27,909 bases of DNA from a virus: the IMG/VR virus record IMGVR_UViG_3300010373_000114, positions 1 to 27,909 of that record; one strand, given 5' to 3'. The position numbers were made by a program, and so were the translations under genes. Below the pieces are notes generated by a model. That model worked only from the letters and a program-made list of their open reading frames with translations. It did not search any database and was not told where the DNA came from. Positions within the stretch are counted from its first letter, which is position 1. Each line of letters begins with the position of its first letter. Of this stretch, positions 4,094-20,538 are shown in pieces.

Positions 4094-4426
4094 ATGGCCC
4101 AAACAATACCGCTCACCTCGGCGCCAAACCAAGCTCTGCGCGTCGCGCTTAACATCAATGGGGCCACGGTAACGCTGAATCTCGAAATTTCCTACAACTC
4201 TTCGGGCGGGTTTTGGGTGATGTCGGTCGCGGACCAGAATGGACAGCCGCTCCTGTCTTGCGTGCCACTGCTGACTGGAATTTGGCCGGCGGCTAACATC
4301 CTCGGACCTTACGATTACATGCAGATCGGCTCCGCGTTTCTGATCAACCAAAACGGCGCGGCTACGGACTTTCCGGACGATACAAATCTCGGCTCAGGCT
4401 TCATTTTGCTCTGGGATAACAACTGA
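4094..4426 (+). CDS. Baseplate plug protein
   Basis: The 110-aa beta-rich protein resembles the phage baseplate plug family described from the minimal cyanomyophage Pam3. Visible signs are an N-terminal MAQTIPLTSAPNQALRVALN, a GGFWVMSVADQNGQPLL hairpin, GPYDYMQIGSAFLI, and a C-terminal FPDDTNLGSGFILLW. The motif 'tNLGsgFxLxW' near the end is characteristic. It lies directly between the Dit-like and hub genes, as in that phage. Its last base is shared with the hub start (TGATG). Confidence 0.75.
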   Translation: MAQTIPLTSAPNQALRVALNINGATVTLNLEISYNSSGGFWVMSVADQNGQPLLSCVPLLTGIWPAANILGPYDYMQIGSAFLINQNGAATDFPDDTNLGSGFILLWDNN

Positions 4427-5514
4427 TGTCCACCACTCCGCAGCCGTTACCGTTTTTCGGGCGCGCGTGGCAGGTCGCGGTGAATACTGCGGACGGCAAG
4501 ACGTATTCCGTTCAGAGTACCGTAGCCGACGGCGAAGACCCGTTGCGCGTGACGTTCAAGATCGAGAATTACGCGCTGTTGGCTTACTGGCAGGCTGAAG
4601 TCGCGATCTACAACATGGAAGCGTCGATTCGCAACCAGGTCCGCGGCATTCAGAACCTCAACGACTTCTGGGCCTTCAACCAACCGCTGGTAGCCGGCGA
4701 CTCTCTATCTTTGAGCGCCGGATATCGCGCGGCGAATTCCACGCAACCGTTCGACGTTGGCGCAAACCTTCTCTACGCCGGGAAGATCCTGCAATCCGCC
4801 TGGACGCGGGAGAACGTAACGGATTACCGCCTCACGCTGCGGTGTGTGACCGGATTGCTCGAAGACGCGCTCAACTTCGTCAGTTTTTCGCTGAGCAAGG
4901 GGGCTACGGCTTACGATGCCGTGACGCAGGCAGCGGGGCATGCCAATATTCCGGTAGAGCATATAGACCAAGCGGCTACCGATGCGCTGAAGTCGAGTGC
5001 GTTTGCACGCGGACAGGCCTTCCACTCGCGACCGTTCAGCACCTTTCGAGACCTGACGAAGCAGAACAATCTGCTTGCGTGGGTGAGTCCGAATGGGCTG
5101 AACGTGCGATCGTTTGACCCAAAGACCACTCCAGCGGCCCCGAATTTCGCGTATGCGCCGGTCAATCTCGACACGAGTCAGCAGCAAAACCGGCAGACGG
5201 CAATCAAGGAAACGCTGATCGGCACTCCCGAGCAGACGCAGGACGGAGTAGTCTTCCGCGTTTTGCTGGATTCCTCGGTAAAGATCGGCGACATCGTGCA
5301 ACTTGCGGCGGGCACAATCGTGAACCTGTTTCCAGTCCAGATTGGGTCTTTGCCGCCGGTGCCGAGCCGGGATGGCCTGTACGTGGTGGCCGGTCTGAAG
5401 CACGTAGGAGACAGCCGCGGCCGCGGCGACGACTGGTACACGGAGGTTCAGGGCGTGACCATGGATTTCTTCGCCAATTTCTTGCAGGCGCGCAATCCGC
5501 TCGGAAAGAACTAA
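4426..5514 (+). CDS. Baseplate hub protein (gp27-like)
   Basis: The 362-aa protein is positioned and sized as the baseplate hub, the trimeric ring that carries the central spike. The N-terminus (FFGRAWQVAVN...YSVQSTVADGEDPLRVTFKIE) and the beta-barrel alternation are typical of hubs in phages with a plug protein. A linker and second barrel follow around residues 150-260 (SRPFSTFRDLTKQNNLLAWVS). The C-terminal part (GLYVVAGLKHVGDSRG, DDWYTEVQGVTMD) corresponds to the family's last domain. It shares TGATG with the plug and TAATG with the spike gene. Confidence 0.75.
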   Translation: MSTTPQPLPFFGRAWQVAVNTADGKTYSVQSTVADGEDPLRVTFKIENYALLAYWQAEVAIYNMEASIRNQVRGIQNLNDFWAFNQPLVAGDSLSLSAGYRAANSTQPFDVGANLLYAGKILQSAWTRENVTDYRLTLRCVTGLLEDALNFVSFSLSKGATAYDAVTQAAGHANIPVEHIDQAATDALKSSAFARGQAFHSRPFSTFRDLTKQNNLLAWVSPNGLNVRSFDPKTTPAAPNFAYAPVNLDTSQQQNRQTAIKETLIGTPEQTQDGVVFRVLLDSSVKIGDIVQLAAGTIVNLFPVQIGSLPPVPSRDGLYVVAGLKHVGDSRGRGDDWYTEVQGVTMDFFANFLQARNPLGKN

Positions 5515-6596: not shown

Positions 6597-7970
6597 ATGC
6601 CCTACACCCCTCCGACCATCGGCCTGACAGGGCTGACGCTGCCGTCCTATGCCGACATTCTGAACTGGCTGACCGGTCAATTTTTGGCAATTTACGGAGC
6701 CGCATCCTATCTAGGCGCGGACTCTGCGGATTTCCAGGACATCGCCGTGCGCGCGCTGCAAGCCTATGACACAGCGCAAGCGTTGCAGGCGGTCTACCTG
6801 TCCATGAATCCATTGACGGCCGTGGGAACAAGCCTGGACCTCTGCGGGCGACTCATCGGCACGGCTCGTAAATCGGCATCATATTCGAGCGTCATCCTCA
6901 CGCTCAGCGGTGCGGCGGGAACGGTCATCACCAATGGCTTCGCAAAGGACGTGAACGGCAACTCGTGGAAACTGCCCTCGCCAGTGACGATCGGCAGCGG
7001 CGGAACGATCGCGGTTACCGCGACCGCTTCGACGCTTGGGAACATCACCGCGAACGCAAACGACATCACCACGATCGCGACGCCTACGGCTGGGTGGACC
7101 GGAGTCGTTAACTTGGCTGCTGCGATCCCGGGGTCCGCCGTGGAGCCGGATTCGCAATACCGGGCCCGGCTCCTTGTAGCGCAAATGAAGCCATCCATGA
7201 GCCTGCTTCCAGGCACGGCGGCGGCCATCGCGGCGGTTTCTGGTGTGACACGAAGCCAAGCGTACGAGAACCCGACGAACGCGACGGACTCCAACGGTCT
7301 GCCTCCCCATTCGATCACCTGCGTAGTAGAGGGCGGCGCCGCGGCAGACGTCGCGCAGGCCATCTATGATAACCGCGGCATCGGCTGCGACACGAACGGC
7401 ACCACAACGGTGACGATCACCGATCCGGCCAACCCCGGAATTACGATGCCGATTTCGTTCGACGTGCTCGCGTACGTGCCGGTATTCGTTGCGCTGAACG
7501 TGCACGCTTTGACGGGATACACCACGGCCACAACCGCGGCAATTCAGGCGGCGGTAGCAGCCTACCTGAACAGTCTCGGAATCGGAGAGGGCGTAGTCTA
7601 CAGCGAGCTTTTCGGTGCGGCGCTGAACGCGCGCCCCAACCCGGACCAGCCGCTTTTCTCTGTGCGCGCGATCGCATTCGGAGGAGCGGCGGCGCAGACC
7701 ACCGCCACTACGACCGCGAGCAGCCCGACCATCACGGTTGCGAGCGCAACCGGCATTGCCACCGGTCAGGTTGCAGTAGGTGCGAACATCCCGGCAGGCA
7801 CTACCGTTTCGGCAGTCAGCGGAACAACCATCACGCTATCCGCCAACGCGACGGCGAACGCGACCGGCGTGGCGGTATCTTTCTTCCCGACTGGCACTTC
7901 AGATTTGGCGGTCGCCTTCAACAAGGCTGCCAGCGGCTCTACGACATTCGTTCAAATCACTCTCGTTTAA
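6597..7970 (+). CDS. Baseplate J-like wedge protein with C-terminal inserted module
   Basis: The 457-aa protein starts four bases after the gp25-like gene and shows the baseplate J pattern: YADILNWLTGQFLAIYG near the start, then helical and strand domains with EPDSQYRARLLVAQM (residues about 180-195) and AIAAVSGVTRSQAYENPTN. The C-terminal domain near residues 290-360 carries VALNVHALTGYTT and IGEGVVYSELFGA. Residues about 362-433 are a Ser/Thr/Ala-rich module with IATGQVAVGANIPAGTTVSA, which splits the final J domain from its last strand (AVAFNKAAS...FVQITLV). This module type recurs in unrelated phage tail proteins, and its presence here looks like an insertion. Confidence 0.8.
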   Translation: MPYTPPTIGLTGLTLPSYADILNWLTGQFLAIYGAASYLGADSADFQDIAVRALQAYDTAQALQAVYLSMNPLTAVGTSLDLCGRLIGTARKSASYSSVILTLSGAAGTVITNGFAKDVNGNSWKLPSPVTIGSGGTIAVTATASTLGNITANANDITTIATPTAGWTGVVNLAAAIPGSAVEPDSQYRARLLVAQMKPSMSLLPGTAAAIAAVSGVTRSQAYENPTNATDSNGLPPHSITCVVEGGAAADVAQAIYDNRGIGCDTNGTTTVTITDPANPGITMPISFDVLAYVPVFVALNVHALTGYTTATTAAIQAAVAAYLNSLGIGEGVVYSELFGAALNARPNPDQPLFSVRAIAFGGAAAQTTATTTASSPTITVASATGIATGQVAVGANIPAGTTVSAVSGTTITLSANATANATGVAVSFFPTGTSDLAVAFNKAASGSTTFVQITLV

Positions 7971-7982
7971 AGGAAATCGATT

Positions 7983-8393
7983 ATGGCTCTGAACCTTCAA
8001 AACTCCGACGCTGCGGCAAACGCCGGCTGCAACGCGCTCTGCGCGCTCGCCAACGGTGGATTCATCAAACTATACACCGGCAGCCAGCCCGTGAACGCGA
8101 ATACGGCTCTCGGTGCTCAAACGCTTCTCGCCACACTGCCACTCTCGGCGACGGCTTTTGCGAATGCCGTTGCTGGTGTGGCCACGGCCAACGCCATCAC
8201 CGCAGCCGCCGCGGTCGCAAGCGGCACCGCTACCTGGTTCCGCTGCTACAAATCGGACGGCACAAGCGTGGTGTTCGACGGCACCGTAGGAACTTCAGGT
8301 TGCAACATCAACATGAATTCCAACGTGATTTCGAGCGGCGCGACCGTCGGAGTATCCTCGTTCACCTTCACCCTCAACGAAGCCGGCAACTAA
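7983..8393 (+). CDS. Conserved phage structural protein of unknown role
   Basis: The 136-aa protein begins MALNLQNSDAAANAGCNAL and carries GGFIKLYTGSQPVNANTALG, GVATANAITAAAA and TATWFRCYKSDGT, then VGTSGCNINMN. I recognise this order from small proteins in the tail regions of many phages, but know no demonstrated function. The C-terminal half is strand-rich. An AAAGGAA site at 7969-7975 precedes the ATG. It may be a small decoration or fibre-attachment protein, which is inference from location only. Confidence 0.7.
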   Translation: MALNLQNSDAAANAGCNALCALANGGFIKLYTGSQPVNANTALGAQTLLATLPLSATAFANAVAGVATANAITAAAAVASGTATWFRCYKSDGTSVVFDGTVGTSGCNINMNSNVISSGATVGVSSFTFTLNEAGN

Positions 8394-8426: not shown

Positions 8427-9602
8427 ATGTCTACCCAAACCTGGAATACTCCCGGCACTTTTACCTGGACATGCCCTGCTAATGTCAGCAGCGTCCAGAT
8501 TGAGTGCTGGGGGCCGGGTGCGGACGGCGGAGAAGGGTCGGACCAAAGCCTCGGGGAGGATTTCCAGGGCGGTGGCGGCGGTGGCGGCGGCGGTTACGCC
8601 AAGGTTTTATCGTATGCTGTAACTCCTGGAACCAATTACACCGTAGTCGTAGGAGGCGTCGGCAACTTCGTCGATTCTTCCTTCGCGTCTACAGTTTGCA
8701 TCGGCGGCAAAGGCTCTCCCGGAACGGATTCATCTGGAACCGGATTTGTCAGCGGGGGCGCCGGCGGATCCGGCACTGGCGACGTCGTAGTAGCGGGCTC
8801 ACCCGGACAGGACACCAGCGTTGGGGCAGCCGGTGCCGGTGGAAACGGGGGCAACGGCGGGACCGGTGGAGGTCCTGGAGATCCTACCGCGAGTCCAACC
8901 GGAACCACTGGCTTTGGCAGCGATGGCACCACTCCGGGTGGTGGTGGTGGTGGTGGATACAGCGCCTTCGACCACATCGGCGGGCCGGGGTATCCAGGCG
9001 GGGCCGGGGCAACGGGCGCGGTTACCCTCACCTGGCAGGTATCGTTTATCGGGACCGGATCGGTTTCGGCTAACTGCTCTCTGTCCGGCTCCGGTACCCA
9101 ATCGCTTTCCGGCTCCGGCGCGGTCACATCGGTATCGTCTTTTTCCGCTACAGGTTCCCAATCCCTTATCGGGCGGGCCGACCCATCGGCAAGATTCTCT
9201 CTGTCGGCATCGGGTACGGAGACGTTCTCCAGTACTGCGGCCCTCAGTTCGTCGGCATCGCTATCCGGCTCGGGGATCAAGGTCGATAATATCGCCTCTG
9301 GGTCTGTGGCGACGTCTGCCCAGATCTCAGGCTCGGGAACTGAGGCGTTCACTGGAAGTGGCGGCCCGCGAGCGCTCGCATCAGTTTCCGCCACCGGCAC
9401 CGAATCCTATGCCGGATCGGCGGCGGCCACCGCTCTCGCGTCAGTTGCCGCAAATGCTTCTCAATCGGTATCCGGCGACGGCGTGGTGAGCGTTTCCTCC
9501 TCCACCTTAGGCGATTTCTGGATGATCCCGCCCCCGCCTCTTCCGCCACGCTGGAAGACATCGGCGTATTATCTCGGCCTTTTGACGTCGGAGTATAAAT
9601 GA
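8427..9602 (+). CDS. Glycine-rich fibre protein with 20-residue repeats
   Basis: The 391-aa protein has three parts. Residues 1-200 are a glycine-rich domain of the type seen in phage fibres and adhesins (WNTPGTFTWTCPANVSSVQI, GGGGGGGGGYAKV, then YTVVVGG). Residues 207-347 are seven degenerate repeats of about 20 residues, each opening with an aromatic or aliphatic residue plus Ser/Gly and closing with a SGSGTQS-like end. The last 30 residues are PPPPLPP followed by YYLGLLTSEYK. That end resembles the first conserved segment of the DUF2612 domain, whose remainder is the next gene in the -1 frame. The stop overlaps the next start (ATGA). It probably forms an adhesin or fibre attached near the baseplate periphery. 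Confidence 0.7.
   Translation: MSTQTWNTPGTFTWTCPANVSSVQIECWGPGADGGEGSDQSLGEDFQGGGGGGGGGYAKVLSYAVTPGTNYTVVVGGVGNFVDSSFASTVCIGGKGSPGTDSSGTGFVSGGAGGSGTGDVVVAGSPGQDTSVGAAGAGGNGGNGGTGGGPGDPTASPTGTTGFGSDGTTPGGGGGGGYSAFDHIGGPGYPGGAGATGAVTLTWQVSFIGTGSVSANCSLSGSGTQSLSGSGAVTSVSSFSATGSQSLIGRADPSARFSLSASGTETFSSTAALSSSASLSGSGIKVDNIASGSVATSAQISGSGTEAFTGSGGPRALASVSATGTESYAGSAAATALASVAANASQSVSGDGVVSVSSSTLGDFWMIPPPPLPPRWKTSAYYLGLLTSEYK
9045..9467 (+). repeat. Seven tandem 60-bp (20-residue) protein-level repeats
   Basis: Within the glycine-rich fibre gene, units start near 9045 and recur every 60 bases (one is 63). They are conserved at the protein level (unit ends SGSGTQS, SATGSQS, SASGTET, SGSGTEA, SATGTES) but diverged in DNA. 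A partial eighth unit follows. Confidence 0.7.
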
Positions 9603-10120
9603 GCGCTCCCAACATGACGGCGTGGCTGAGCGCGAATCTCGAACTCTACCAGGACATTCTTCTGTGCCTATCGGAATTCGAAGACGCGTTTGATCTGCCG
9701 ACCGCAGTAGGGCCGCAGCTCGATATCTTGGGAGCCATTGTCGGACAATCCCGTACGGTTCTGTTTCAGCCGAGCGGCGGCGTTAGCCCGGTGCTGGATG
9801 ACGACACCTACCGCCTGTTGTTGCAGGCGCGCATCGCCCAGAATCACTGGGATGGGAAAATCGCGAGCCTGTTGGCAATTTGGAGCGCTCTATTCCCCGG
9901 CGGCACGCTCGTTGTTGACGATCACCAGCAGGATATGACGGTGGATATCTTCGTGTCCGGGGCGTTCACGAGCATCATTCAGGATCTCATCTTGAACGGG
10001 TACATGCTCCCGCGCCCTCAGGGCGTGCTTTATAACTACTCGCTCGCGGATCTGCCCATGCTCGGGTTCGACCGGGACGACTCATTTGTCGCCGGGTTTG
10101 ACGGCGGACGTTTTGTGTGA
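9599..10120 (+). CDS. DUF2612-like tail/baseplate protein (possible N-terminal truncation)
   Basis: The 173-aa product contains the DUF2612-type core: MTAWLSANLELYQDI, then AFDLPTAVGPQLDILGAIVG, then DDTYRLLLQARIAQNHWDG and a strand-rich C-terminus ending GFDGGRFV. Such proteins sit after baseplate J, in the position of the P2 gpI protein, and are thought to help attach tail fibres. The family's usual opening motif ('YLxLxTSEy') is not in this frame. It is found at the end of the upstream gene, in the +1-relative frame. The ATG overlaps the upstream TGA as ATGA. A second methionine lies at residue 6. The protein could function with a separate N-terminal segment, or the split may be a frameshift mutation. 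Confidence 0.75.
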   Translation: MSAPNMTAWLSANLELYQDILLCLSEFEDAFDLPTAVGPQLDILGAIVGQSRTVLFQPSGGVSPVLDDDTYRLLLQARIAQNHWDGKIASLLAIWSALFPGGTLVVDDHQQDMTVDIFVSGAFTSIIQDLILNGYMLPRPQGVLYNYSLADLPMLGFDRDDSFVAGFDGGRFV

Positions 10121-11027: not shown

Positions 11028-11702
11028 ATGAGCTTTCTCGGCGGCAGAATTCAAAAGCAGCAAGTCTTCACGGGCAGCGGCACGTTCTTGCTGTCGGCTC
11101 TACTGCAGCAGGCTGGAGGATGGGTGACCGTTCTCGCGGCCGGCGGAGGCGGTGGTGGCGGTGGCAACTTCGGTGGTGGCGGCGGCGGCGGGCAAGTCAT
11201 TGAGCGCGTGGTTCAGGTATCGGGGTCCTCGGTTGCCGTTACGATCGGTGGCGGCGGCTCCGGCGGCGCCAATGGCCTGCCCGGCAATCCCGGCGGACAG
11301 ACCTCCTTCGGTCCATACGTCACGGTTACGGGCGGGCGCGGCGGGGACGCCTCCGGCAACGGCGGAAACTGCGGCGACGGCAGCGGTGGCGGTTTTGGAA
11401 GCACTGCTGCGGGCGCTGGCGGAGGCGGAGCGGGCGGCGCCGGCGGCAACGCGCAAGTTGGGTCTGGCTTCGGCTCAATATCCGGTGGCGGCGGGATTGG
11501 ACTGAAAGGATTCGGCGGCGGTGGCGGCGGTGGTGGAACCCCAGGCCCGGGAAGTTGCGGAGGCGGAACGGGGGCGAGCGGGACATTACCGCCAACAGGC
11601 GCTACCGCCAATAGCGGATCTGGCGGCGGTGGAGCGAACCCAACGTACAACACAGGCGGAAACGGTGGCAGTGGCGTCGTGATCGTGACGTGGTGGGAAT
11701 AA
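11028..11702 (+). CDS. Glycine-rich fibre/adhesin protein
   Basis: The 224-aa product is extremely Gly-rich, with runs of eight and seven glycines near residues 38-58 and many GGG and GGGG blocks to residue 215. It opens with QQVFTGSGTFLLSALLQQAG and WVTVLAAGG and ends VVIVTWWE. The start and end strands with Gly loops between them match the glycine-rich domain also present in the gene at 8427. Such domains are found at the tips of phage fibres and in bacterial surface proteins. It lies seven bases after the fibre gene and one base before the next start. Confidence 0.65.
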   Translation: MSFLGGRIQKQQVFTGSGTFLLSALLQQAGGWVTVLAAGGGGGGGGNFGGGGGGGQVIERVVQVSGSSVAVTIGGGGSGGANGLPGNPGGQTSFGPYVTVTGGRGGDASGNGGNCGDGSGGGFGSTAAGAGGGGAGGAGGNAQVGSGFGSISGGGGIGLKGFGGGGGGGGTPGPGSCGGGTGASGTLPPTGATANSGSGGGGANPTYNTGGNGGSGVVIVTWWE

Positions 11703-15375: not shown

Positions 15376-16581
15376 ATGAAGAAACTTCTGTCTCTTTCTC
15401 TCGTTGCGCTGACGCTATTAGCCGTCGATGTGAACCGCATCCGGTTTGGATCGCCGGTGGAGGTCGGTACCGACAACTCTAGCCCCACCTTAACTGCCGT
15501 AAGCCTGAACAGCTCTACCACATTTCTGGCGTGGGTTTTCCCCGCTCCAAAGAGTGAAACGATTACTTCGTTCCTAATCCGCCAGTCCAGCGTGACGGGC
15601 ACGCAACCGCAGTACCGCGTGTCTCTGCAAACCGTGGATGCCAGCGGCAACGCGAGCGGGACCATCCTAGCGGCCGGCGCATACACCTCCGCGGGGAGCG
15701 GCGCCAACAATCTGTTCCAGACCATCTCGACACTCTTCGATGCTTCTGGTACATCGCTGCCGAGCGGAATCGCCGTCACGCGCGGCACATACTACGCGCT
15801 TGTGATCGATCCGTGTCCAAACTCCACGGCTCCATGCTCTGGCGCGGCCACTCCAGATGCAAGCGACTTCACGGCGTTTACCTCGGTGGTTACTGGCATC
15901 AATTCTGGCGCGACAGTCGGTCAGTCACCGTACTCCGAAACGTGGAATGGAACGACGTGGACCAAGAATACGAGCCAACCGGTGTACGGGTATCGGACAT
16001 CGGCCTCCACGACGCGCGGAGTCCCGATCCAGTCTATCCAGTCAACCACCACGAACCAAGGAGCCGAAACCGGCATCTTGCTCAATCTGCCAACCGGTTT
16101 CTGCTCTACCTTCCAAGTGGCCGGCATCCACTTTTGGGGCACGGCGGCGGTTGCGGCCAAGACGATGGACCTCACCGTGTACAACGGGACTACGGTAGTC
16201 GGGGCCACTACGGCTATCGACTCCGATTACGTGCGCACGCCGGGATCTTTTGCGGCGGAGCTTTGGTACTTCTCTGATACCACTCTGCCGACGCTAAATT
16301 GCGGGACTACTTACCGCATCGGGATAGCCCCAGCCGGCGGAGGCAGCGAAGCATTTTTCGTTCGCGCTCTGAACTTCCCGACTGCCCAAGACCGGCTGGC
16401 ATTCCCCGGCGGTGACTGGTTTGCCTACACGAGCCGCACGGGATGCACGGGAGCTTGCCCTGGAAATACCACGGCGTGGACCGATGACACGACCACGCGG
16501 CCAGTGCTCAATCTGATATTCGCCGACATCACTCCGCCGGCCGGGTCTGGAGGACAGCGCTCTTATGCGACGATTCGTTAG
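15376..16581 (+). CDS. Exported beta-rich protein, probable fibre or surface protein
   Basis: The 401-aa protein starts MKKLLSLSLVALTLLAVDV, a signal-like sequence with two lysines and a hydrophobic core. The cleavage site is not a clean A-x-A, so this is the weakest signal of the six. The rest is strand-rich with two related halves: residues about 45-140 (TFLAWVFPAPKSETITSFLI, YRVSLQTVDASGN) and about 230-330 (FQVAGIHFWGTAAV, MDLTVYNGTTVVG, YRIGIAPAGG). Both look like jelly-roll or carbohydrate-binding-type sandwiches that recur in phage tail proteins. No catalytic motif is visible. It has six Cys. The last 17 bases overlap the phosphoesterase gene. Confidence 0.6.
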   Translation: MKKLLSLSLVALTLLAVDVNRIRFGSPVEVGTDNSSPTLTAVSLNSSTTFLAWVFPAPKSETITSFLIRQSSVTGTQPQYRVSLQTVDASGNASGTILAAGAYTSAGSGANNLFQTISTLFDASGTSLPSGIAVTRGTYYALVIDPCPNSTAPCSGAATPDASDFTAFTSVVTGINSGATVGQSPYSETWNGTTWTKNTSQPVYGYRTSASTTRGVPIQSIQSTTTNQGAETGILLNLPTGFCSTFQVAGIHFWGTAAVAAKTMDLTVYNGTTVVGATTAIDSDYVRTPGSFAAELWYFSDTTLPTLNCGTTYRIGIAPAGGGSEAFFVRALNFPTAQDRLAFPGGDWFAYTSRTGCTGACPGNTTAWTDDTTTRPVLNLIFADITPPAGSGGQRSYATIR

Positions 16582-17602
16582 GCTAGCGCTGCTCGCGTCT
16601 CTATCCGTCGCGCTGTTCGCTCAAGCTCCGGCAACCTTCACCGTCGTCGTATGGAATGACATCCACACCGATTCAGCGGGCAATACAGTAGCGGGCGGGC
16701 ACATCCGCGATTGGATCGTCGCCAACAAGACCGCGCGAAATATTACGGGCTTCCTATCGGCGGGGGATGAAATCGCGGACCCGCTGAGCGCGACGGGCCA
16801 CTGGACCGATGTCGTCGGGCTACTGACGGATATCCACAATGCCGGAATTCCAGTGGTCACCGCGCTAGGCAACCACGACGTGGCATTCTTTTCAGCCCCA
16901 GACTCCTCGCAGTGGAATTTCTATATCGCACCCCTGAATGCCGCGTGGGCATCGCACGTTTCCAGTTCGCATTTCACGGGCGGTCTCGCTTCGGCGAACG
17001 AGCAGAACGTCAACGTCTATTTCCCCTGGGATGTTGTGACCGCCTCGGGAACTATCCATCTTGCAGGGGTCGCGGTGAACATGAACGCCGCGCATGGAGA
17101 TATTTCCGACGTGCGCGCATTGATGGATGCGGACACAACCCGCCAGTACATTCTGACGACGCATATGTTCGTGTCAACGCGGGACGCCTCAAATAATCCA
17201 GTGGCGGCGCATACCTGCCTGTACGGCGAGGAATTCTGCGTTGCGACCAACGCTGTCGGAGCGCAAGACGGCGTGGATATGTGGACTGACTTATCGGCCA
17301 ATCCTCGGATTCTCGCAATGATGTCGGGGCACGAGCATTTGCAGGGCTTCTACACCATGGCTGGCTCTGGCCCGAACCCCGTGATCGCGATGGAGAACTT
17401 CAACGCCGCGCTCAACGGGGGCACGTTCACCATCTTAAATTTCCGTCCAGCTGACCGCAAGATCGATCTCATCAGCTCGCAGTGGAACTCCGGCACGAGC
17501 ACTTTTGTCGAAACCACTTTGGGCACCTACGATTGGACGCCGATTCTATCGTCCGCATCTTCCTCCGCGCTGTACGGCGGGGGTCTGGTCGTGCACGAAT
17601 GA
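16565..17602 (+). CDS. Exported calcineurin-like metallophosphoesterase
   Basis: The 345-aa protein has a signal peptide (MRRFVRLALLASLSVALFA, cleavage near residue 19) and the metallophosphatase motifs in order: D32-x-H34 (NDIHTD), GD at 67-68 (SAGDEI), GNHD at 102-105, H200 (TTHM), and GHEH at 255-258. These residues bind two metal ions in the family, so the enzyme should be active on a phosphomonoester or phosphodiester outside the cytoplasm. The substrate cannot be read from the sequence. The start lies within the end of the previous gene, preceded by GGAGG near 16549. The stop overlaps the next start (ATGA). An exported phosphoesterase in a fibre cassette is unusual. It could act on surface phosphate polymers, nucleotides or phospholipids. 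Confidence 0.8.
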   Translation: MRRFVRLALLASLSVALFAQAPATFTVVVWNDIHTDSAGNTVAGGHIRDWIVANKTARNITGFLSAGDEIADPLSATGHWTDVVGLLTDIHNAGIPVVTALGNHDVAFFSAPDSSQWNFYIAPLNAAWASHVSSSHFTGGLASANEQNVNVYFPWDVVTASGTIHLAGVAVNMNAAHGDISDVRALMDADTTRQYILTTHMFVSTRDASNNPVAAHTCLYGEEFCVATNAVGAQDGVDMWTDLSANPRILAMMSGHEHLQGFYTMAGSGPNPVIAMENFNAALNGGTFTILNFRPADRKIDLISSQWNSGTSTFVETTLGTYDWTPILSSASSSALYGGGLVVHE

Positions 17603-20538
17603 GACTGCTGCTTTTCCTGTCCGTCTGCGCCGCGTCCGTCTCGGCTGCCACTTACCAGCCGGGATGGACCTACCTCGCGAATACGACCTTCGCGACGGCT
17701 GGCGTTGCGCCGCCTGATGGATTTGGAGGAGCAGTATGCCCTCCCGATGTGTCCGGAGAGTGCGGCAGCCCAGGCGGCCCGGTTCTGTTCTCCTCACACG
17801 CCGCTGGCATTATCGACGGCGACTGGAGCGGCGGCGTCTTAGATCCGGTGCACAACAGGCTGCTGTTTTGGGGAGGCGGCCACGGCGACTACTACGGTAA
17901 CGAAATATATTCCGTCAATCTTTCCGGCACGCCATCACTATCCCGCTTGACGAACCCGACCGTTCCAATTGCCGACGGCACGGGGTGCCCTCAATCCGCT
18001 CAGTTCGACGGCAATCCGATGCCGCGCCACACCTACAGCGGCCTGGTGAACATTGGAACTACCGGGTACTTGTACCAGTTCAATGGATCGGTATGGCCGT
18101 GCGGCTCGCATTTGGCGGATACCTGGATCCTCAATACGAACACGGCTACGCCGACATGGATTCGGCCCACCATTGCAGGAACCGGTCTGCCAAACCCGCT
18201 TTCTGCTGGCGAGTATGCTTGCACTGCGTGGGATTCTGTAGGCAACAGAGGGATGGTGGCTTATGCGGGGAATCTATGGGCATTCACCTGGAATAGCAGC
18301 ACCTCCACAATCACCTATACCCCTCTGGTTTCAGATGGAAGTTTAAACGCCTACCAGCCGAGTTGCGATATCGATCCCGTAATGCGTACGCCGCTAGGGG
18401 CTTCCACGGCCGGTCGCTGGTTCGTTTCGGTCGAGACCCAGTTTGCGAATGATCCGACAGTCGCACTTGGAAATTTCCGCATAATGGCCGTCGATATTTC
18501 GGGCAACGACCCTTCCTATACCGTGCAGAACTGGACTGCGGCCGCCAATGGCACTTGCACGGCGCTGCGCGGCAACACGTTGGGCTATCAGGGGCCGCCA
18601 GGATGGGCGTACGATGATGCGCTCGGGATGTTCGTTGGCTTCCCCCTTCTCGGCGGGAATACGGTTTATTTGTACTCCGTTGTAACGCAAACTTGCGTGC
18701 CCATGACATTTCCCAATGGTCCGGGCGCCGGCGGGTTGAACGGCGTCTTCGGAAGATGGCGTTACGTCAAGAATGGAAATTATTTTGTCGGCCTGAATTC
18801 GTCCACCCAAAATGCCTTCGTGCTGAATCTGGATGCGCCCATTCCCGGCCTAGGGGCCTCCACGTCTACGTGCATTGATGCAGACGGCGACGGATATGGA
18901 ACCGGCTCGGGGTGCCTGGGGCCGGATGCCAACGACCAGGACGCCACGGTCCACACTGCCGCACAGGCCATCGCGAAATACGGCAGTATTGACGCGACCT
19001 TCCAGTTGCGGAATTACCATCCGACTCGCTACTGGACCGTCGATCCCGCAGCGGGCAACGACGGAACGGGTGCGTCTTGCACGCCCGCAAATTTGGGCGC
19101 TGGTGGCGGCTCGGACTGCAAGCCGTTTCAGCATTGGTCCGCGCTCTCGGGCTCGGTTGCGGCGGGCGATGCGGTTGTGTTCCGCAGCGGCACGTATTCA
19201 TATCCCGTCACCATTGCGCAGGGCACCTCCTCTGCTTCCGTCTACTATCTGGCTTACCCCGGAGAGTCGGCGACGTTCGCTGCTTACCCGAATTACTGGA
19301 CCGTCATCGACAAGGCGTATTGGGTAATCGACGGACTCAGATTTGACGGACAGGGTGACAGCACAAGCGGCACTGGCTGCATTGTCGGCGGCACTGGAGA
19401 TCTGCAATCGAGTTCGACGCAGCATGACTTCATCGTCCGTAATGTGGAGTGCAAAAACTGGCTGAACGGCCCGTATATGTTCAACGGTCTCCAGAACGGG
19501 CTAATCGAATTCAGCTCCTTTCACGACATGACCGGGAGCCACGGTATCTATCTCGGATCTCGTGCGATGGCGAGCACGAGCATTACGGTTCGTAGGAACT
19601 TGCTGTACCGGAATTCCCGTTGCGGCGTGCAGTTCAACGGCCGCGTTTCGGACCTGCACATTGAGCAGAACTACGCATATCAAAACGGCATCGTGGATGG
19701 TGGGGACGACATTTGCCTAGAGAACGGCGTGCACGATTCCTTCATCCGCGGGAACGTGTCTCTCGGATCGGCATTCGGCATCACGATGAACACGTACGAC
19801 GGGAGCGAGTTCGGCGGCGTGGGCTCATCCAGTAATTGCGGAGCGGCGCAGAATCAGAACTGCACATGCGGGGCGAGCCCCAATCTGTTTGCGATTTGCG
19901 CCTTCAGCGAATTCAATAACCTGTTCTCGAACAACACGGCGGTCAACACCGGCCAGGACGTGAACGGAGCGGATATTTCCGGCAACCCGCTCTATCAGAT
20001 CGGGAGACAGCCGACCGATTGCACAACCGCGACATGCCTCGCTACTTCGTTCCCGAACAATACGTGGCAGAACATGGTGATTCTGTCGAAGGGGCTGGCG
20101 AGCTTTGCGCCTCCATGGACCTTCACAGGAGGAACCACCGCCCCTGAGTCCGGCCCTACAAACACGCTGAATCAGGTGGTTTACTTCCAGACTGCGGGGA
20201 CGGCGGAGGTGGTTGGCTACGGACTACAGGTCGGCTGCTGCGGATACCAGTCCTATTCGTGCGCGGCGGCGGTAAGCGGAGGGCACATCGGATCGGCCAC
20301 TAACTGCACGAAGTCCGACCCGAAATTCACCGCGCTCGGAGCGTACAACAACATCGCCGGATACAACCTGCGGTTGCAGCCGTCCTCCCCGGCGCTAACA
20401 GGAGCGATCATCCCCGGATCGCTTCCCATGGACATACTCGGCGCCCCAATAGTTTCTGGATCGCTAGGGGCCTACGAAGGAACTGTCGTTGCCATCCCGT
20501 CCATCACCTTTGGCGGGAGGGTAGTAATTCATCCCTGA
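17599..20538 (+). CDS. Exported Cys-rich protein with MopE-like motif and beta-helix
   Basis: The start chosen is ATG 17599, because it gives a signal peptide (MRLLLFLSVCAASVSA|AT) and overlaps the upstream stop. A longer in-frame reading from 17482 would lack one. The product is 979 aa. Residues about 20-400 resemble a Kelch or beta-propeller-like secreted domain (VLDPVHNRLLFWGGGHGDYY, MPRHTYSGLVNIG). Residues about 423-450 are a metal-binding motif like MopE repeats (CIDADGDGYGTGSGCLGPDA). Residues about 477-700 look like a right-handed beta-helix, with YWVIDGLRFDG, FIVRNVECKNW, GLIEFSSFHDM and ITVRRNLLYRN rungs. I count about 26 Cys in the mature protein. In phages, beta-helices often act as tailspike depolymerases, but no catalytic residue can be assigned here. 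Confidence 0.7.
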   Translation: MRLLLFLSVCAASVSAATYQPGWTYLANTTFATAGVAPPDGFGGAVCPPDVSGECGSPGGPVLFSSHAAGIIDGDWSGGVLDPVHNRLLFWGGGHGDYYGNEIYSVNLSGTPSLSRLTNPTVPIADGTGCPQSAQFDGNPMPRHTYSGLVNIGTTGYLYQFNGSVWPCGSHLADTWILNTNTATPTWIRPTIAGTGLPNPLSAGEYACTAWDSVGNRGMVAYAGNLWAFTWNSSTSTITYTPLVSDGSLNAYQPSCDIDPVMRTPLGASTAGRWFVSVETQFANDPTVALGNFRIMAVDISGNDPSYTVQNWTAAANGTCTALRGNTLGYQGPPGWAYDDALGMFVGFPLLGGNTVYLYSVVTQTCVPMTFPNGPGAGGLNGVFGRWRYVKNGNYFVGLNSSTQNAFVLNLDAPIPGLGASTSTCIDADGDGYGTGSGCLGPDANDQDATVHTAAQAIAKYGSIDATFQLRNYHPTRYWTVDPAAGNDGTGASCTPANLGAGGGSDCKPFQHWSALSGSVAAGDAVVFRSGTYSYPVTIAQGTSSASVYYLAYPGESATFAAYPNYWTVIDKAYWVIDGLRFDGQGDSTSGTGCIVGGTGDLQSSSTQHDFIVRNVECKNWLNGPYMFNGLQNGLIEFSSFHDMTGSHGIYLGSRAMASTSITVRRNLLYRNSRCGVQFNGRVSDLHIEQNYAYQNGIVDGGDDICLENGVHDSFIRGNVSLGSAFGITMNTYDGSEFGGVGSSSNCGAAQNQNCTCGASPNLFAICAFSEFNNLFSNNTAVNTGQDVNGADISGNPLYQIGRQPTDCTTATCLATSFPNNTWQNMVILSKGLASFAPPWTFTGGTTAPESGPTNTLNQVVYFQTAGTAEVVGYGLQVGCCGYQSYSCAAAVSGGHIGSATNCTKSDPKFTALGAYNNIAGYNLRLQPSSPALTGAIIPGSLPMDILGAPIVSGSLGAYEGTVVAIPSITFGGRVVIHP

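Follow-up and report, generated by a model that had tools for sequence, protein, structure and literature searches.

The window, which is the whole 27.9-kb virus record that was analysed (IMG/VR record IMGVR_UViG_3300010373_000114), was found to contain a contractile-tail gene cluster, and the features of the locus under study are collected in Table 1. The DUF2612 gene adjoined Baseplate_J within this cluster, two genes downstream of gpJ, which is the neighbourhood characteristic of its family. The Baseplate_J-like product would be the expected partner of the DUF2612 protein in the wedge core bundle. Further fibre-like genes followed 3' of DUF2612, and the other genes of the tail cluster were packed equally tightly.

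Table 1. Features of the fibre-DUF2612 junction and of the genes preceding it (positions in the window; L003 is the related virus described in the text)
Feature	Position	Strand	Details
Hub, E217_GP41 family	4426-5514		
Baseplate_J-like gene (gp6/gp16 class)	6597-7970	+	PF04865, 1.3e-17
Small virion protein	7983-8393		
Tail-fibre gene	8427-9602	+	ORF of 391 aa; Pfam Gly_rich_2, 1.1e-07; PHROG tail fibre families
Linker GDFWMIPPPPLPPRWKTSA from the fibre repeats to helix 1	9510-9566	+	0 amino-acid changes relative to L003
YYLGLLTSEYK, DUF2612 N-terminal (helix 1) segment in the fibre gene	9567-9599	+	Matrix score; profile positions 1-11
GGAG, Shine-Dalgarno-like site	9590-9593	+	5 bases 5' of the ATG, within the S-E codons of TSEY
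ATGA stop-start overlap	9599-9602	+	DUF2612 ATG 9599-9601, fibre TGA 9600-9602; identical in L003
DUF2612 wedge gene without helix 1 (XM1 gp17/T4 gp7 class)	9599-10120	+	PF11041, 4e-26; phrog_587, 1.5e-40

The fibre protein consisted of a glycine-rich N-terminal domain (PF21722), Ser/Gly/Ala-rich repeats, a Pro-rich linker and a DUF2612 helix-1 segment, its C-terminus reading ...WKTSAYYLGLLTSEYK. The DUF2612 ORF encoded 173 aa, started with MSAPNMTAWLS and was read in frame -1 relative to the fibre. A start of the DUF2612 gene further upstream was impossible because an in-frame TAA (9596-9598) stood directly before its ATG. The first-pass annotation had described, at 9565-9640, a fibre ending in YYLGLLTSEYK that overlapped by ATGA with a -1 neighbour, and this description was borne out by the sequence, with the segment lying inside that interval.

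The DUF2612 protein was recognised by the Pfam family profile PF11041 with 92.5 bits against a curated cut-off of 23.5, and the match began at position 12 of 181. The YYxxLxTSxY segment, with which the domain opens, was absent from the DUF2612 chain and was located on the upstream fibre gene. Using a profile of intact homologues, a score of 249.1 bits was obtained for DUF2612 alone, starting from position 12. When the fibre tail was joined to it, the match started from position 1 and reached 264.4 bits (~15 bits gained), the joined two-frame protein being scored by profile alone. The joining of 200 shuffled tails to DUF2612 resulted in a mean of 249.4 and a maximum of 255.1 bits, so the earlier proposal that the two chains together reproduce the usual opening of DUF2612 proteins was confirmed. 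A segment matrix was also built from 77 unique homologue segments, on which YYLGLLTSEYK scored 38.3 and the best homologue 39.3.

Based on the profile, fold and neighbourhood, it was concluded that the DUF2612 product was a baseplate wedge protein of the gp7/XM1-gp17 class. Its sequence profile matched gp17 of Vibrio phage XM1 (PDB 7kh1, 4e-13), gp23 of cyanophage Pam3 (PDB 7yfz, 1.9e-09) and gp89 (9zd7). The AlphaFold model of an intact homologue (L004, 67% identical, pLDDT 90.3) resembled XM1 gp17 with a Z of 11.8 (160 residues, 3.8 A) and Pam3 gp23 with a Z of 11.5. Helices were predicted in this model at residues 5-10 and 20-46 with a coil at 11-19 between them, which is consistent with a wedge fold that has an N-terminal helix-turn-helix. 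In XM1, the helix-turn-helix spans gp17 residues 1-48 and is joined with those of two gp16 chains to give the (gp16)2-gp17 core bundle (PMC10457771). Judging by the coil of the L004 model, the break between the two genes of the window falls in the turn of this wedge helix-turn-helix.

For the main survey of relatives, mostly patterns taken from the central part of DUF2612 were used. It yielded 85 distinct intact homologues, each of which had the segment in frame with DUF2612, in most cases 2-45 residues past the start codon. A normal lack of the segment in DUF2612 homologues, which the first-pass annotation had named as a refuting outcome, was thus not observed. In an enlarged set of 124 distinct loci, L003 was the only one without an in-frame segment; the hits were ranked by an intact query, so the set was biased somewhat to intact forms. 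A second apparently segment-less locus, L109, had been flagged by the script due to a misalignment, and it reads MSQYTDLITSEH.

L003 is the virus record IMGVR 3300010396_000011, which shares ~9.4 kb with the window at ~90% DNA identity and has an identical split and junction. A comparison of the two gave dN 0.049 and dS 0.20 for the fibre, and dN 0.039 and dS 0.36 for DUF2612, the substitution pattern of two genes under purifying selection. There were 4 silent and 0 amino-acid changes in the last 30 fibre codons, compared with 23 amino-acid changes in the 110 codons before them. Measured against the fibre-wide ratio, selection on the last 30 codons had a P of about 0.1, a value resting on the four silent changes. 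In the DUF2612 protein of the window, the sequence DDHQQD was observed, which is one residue longer than in L003 and the other aligned relatives (DxxQD or DxxQN); apart from this residue, the stretch around it is conserved.

Further splits were sought in viral contigs with a degenerate motif ending on (A/G)TGA, and only the contig of L003 was matched. Therefore, the split arrangement appeared to be rare, as seen with a DNA pattern that fixes TCN for serine and misses other overlaps. A search of viral contigs with the whole fibre for a gene in which it was fused to DUF2612 returned only L012, which lies on the same contig as L003, and parts of the fibre had no match in the phage collection. The sole fibre homologue found thus adjoined DUF2612, and the alternative outcome, in which fibre homologues end with the segment but have no such neighbour, did not occur.

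In-frame fusions with other modules were found among the relatives. The 329-aa gene of L005 encoded a mostly beta domain of ~145 residues followed in frame by a DUF2612 domain 66% identical to that of the window. The gene order of L005 was that of the window, namely gpJ (457 aa), DUF2612, a ~297-aa protein and a glycine-rich protein. The model of the L005 extension showed beta strands with a pLDDT of about 55-73, and many beta-sandwich modules matched it weakly (Z 7.0 and below), so that it was placed in no particular family. The fusion (L005:4524-5513) starts 2 bases past gpJ, and an internal ATG at 4959 could serve as the start of DUF2612 alone. In L057/L118 and L119, ARDSQD-type repeats were in frame with DUF2612. 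Several N-terminal repeats of the ARDSQD(x)LPV type were seen in L119:2501-3427 and L057:2653-3552, where a gene of about 350 aa intervenes after gpJ. Short Gly/Tyr-rich N-terminal extensions were common among other homologues. Four further candidates (L014, L134, L188 and L053), all with long N-terminal extensions, were not counted as fusions, as the residues 5' of the motif look like another frame (Arg/Cys-rich), and a start later than that of the long ORF is likely for these genes. The fusions and short extensions mark the DUF2612 N-terminus as a place for the addition of surface modules, and the simplest source of the present split would be an ancestor in which the fibre was fused there.

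These fusions resembled the window in having an extra module just upstream of the helix-1 segment, after gpJ, but they were single covalent chains and their modules were not homologous to the fibre of the window. XM1 gp17 is a homologous wedge protein with an N-terminal helix-turn-helix, and the minimal baseplate wedge protein Pam3 gp23 belongs to the same family as the window's DUF2612 by sequence and fold; however, the former has helix 1 within its one chain and the latter is a single intact chain. In the AlgoCIS protein Alg12, a gp6-like and a gp7-like wedge protein are fused into one (PMC8894135). It demonstrates that the chains making up a wedge core bundle may be either fused or separate while the bundle is kept, although in this case two wedge proteins are fused and no fibre is involved. 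For Pseudomonas phage K8, an interaction between the DUF2612 wedge protein GP075 and the fibre GP076 was reported, but the GP075 gene is intact and the interaction takes place without a split helix (PMC9887876). The literature search yielded no paper on the fission of baseplate genes and no description of a wedge helix 1 that is provided by a fibre. As judged from the sequence, the split would be a variant on known parts, in which a protein of the family lacks only helix 1 in its own chain.

We proposed the following account, to which a probability of about 0.6 was assigned as a whole. In an ancestor, a fibre-type module would have been placed in frame at the N-terminus of DUF2612, and the joint would then have come apart at the turn that links helices 1 and 2 of the wedge helix-turn-helix. 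Helix 1 would have been left behind as the C-terminus of the fibre, so that the wedge protein would now consist of two chains. DUF2612 would be started by coupled re-initiation at the ATGA, using the GGAG within the TSEY codons. The fibre C-terminus would fill the position of the missing helix by docking back into the core bundle of (gpJ-like)2-DUF2612, and the docked helix would anchor the fibre to the wedge non-covalently. The analysis established that the domain is split, that two viruses share the split, to which family the protein belongs, where the break lies and that fused relatives exist; from these results we infer the order of fusion and fission, the re-initiation and the docking in trans.

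The split probably arose by fission of a fused gene, because in-frame N-terminal fusions are present in three related viruses (L005, L057/L118 and L119). The first-pass suggestion that an ancestral fibre-DUF2612 fusion was split was supported by these fusions and by the failure of both refuting outcomes named with it, but the fused genes found bear other modules and none has this fibre. The assembly of the two chains through a shared domain is the preferred function and is plausible, since the chain is interrupted at the turn of a helix-turn-helix that, in XM1 gp17, makes up the wedge core bundle. Its specific form, a domain complementation in which the fibre C-terminus acts as wedge helix 1 and a fibre oligomer sits on a single wedge copy with no covalent link, was given even odds. 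The occurrence of the split in two viruses only counts against the main account.

It is also conceivable, though rather unlikely, that the split is real and YYLGLLTSEYK is a remnant, with DUF2612 working without helix 1 and the fibre attached elsewhere. XM1 gp17 carries tail spikes, and these bind to its loop 80-106 and C-terminus rather than to helix 1 (PMC10457771), which speaks for such an arrangement and against the main account. Helix 1 was also short in the L004 model, and selection on the segment was gauged by the four silent substitutions only. On the other hand, the fit of the segment to the family was on a par with that of the top-scoring intact homologues, it was unchanged in L003 despite the diverged neighbouring repeats, and 0 intact homologues in the survey were without it.

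Programmed -1 frameshifting before the TGA would yield some covalent fibre-DUF2612 fusion next to free fibre, and the first-pass annotation had likewise considered that translation passes between the frames. The -1 relation and the four-base overlap are compatible with it, reading across would restore the whole domain, and covalent fusions are known in relatives. However, no slippery heptamer X_XXY_YYZ was present before the fibre stop at GAG TAT AAA TGA, RNA folding downstream of the junction was no better than expected (z -1.39), and a good ribosome site stood 5' of the ATG. Joining by a -1 shift would also give a TSEY-to-AWL spacing of 8 residues, one above the 7 of most relatives (7-9 overall). 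The ATGA overlap together with the GGAG is best read as a standard coupled start, and it explains the translation of DUF2612. Frameshifting was therefore regarded as improbable, and the link between fibre and baseplate is probably non-covalent because the heptamer is missing, the RNA folding is unremarkable and the start is ordinary.

A sequencing or assembly error, which the first-pass annotation had wished to exclude, or a recent pseudogene could produce such a break by one small length change, but this was considered very improbable: the same junction was found in L003, a different virus at ~90% DNA identity, and both frames were otherwise intact and under purifying selection. The possibility that the fibre tail resembles the DUF2612 opening by chance, for which the length of just 11 residues might speak, was practically dismissed, as on the segment matrix the runner-up among the 11-mers from the six frames of the window scored 15.4 and 400,000 random 11-mers scored at most 13.2, and the segment sits exactly at the junction where the domain misses 11 positions.

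Phages differ in how their fibres are attached to simple contractile baseplates, and the density often leaves this joint unresolved. If the proposed account is true, the complementation joint would be a fibre-baseplate attachment not described for solved contractile tails in the literature covered. A fibre supplying helix 1 would wire a receptor-binding part into the element thought to signal contraction to the sheath. The account also illustrates how a receptor-binding module that was once fused may become a separate protein with its attachment site kept, and the split would free the fibre copy number from the wedge copy number. For annotators, a simple check follows: DUF2612 proteins without the YYxxLxTSxY opening should show the motif at the end of the upstream gene.

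Some other features of the window were recorded. Two glycine-rich (PF21722) proteins, at 8427-9050 and 11028-11702, flank DUF2612 and its neighbour. The idea that the fibre arose as a copy of the glycine-rich gene at 11028-11702 was rejected, the alignment being no better than composition. A calcineurin-like phosphoesterase gene was located at 16565-17602. It is overlapped by 121 bases by a long ORF at 17482-20538 with a GTG start, which lies among tail genes and has a weak beta-helix match.
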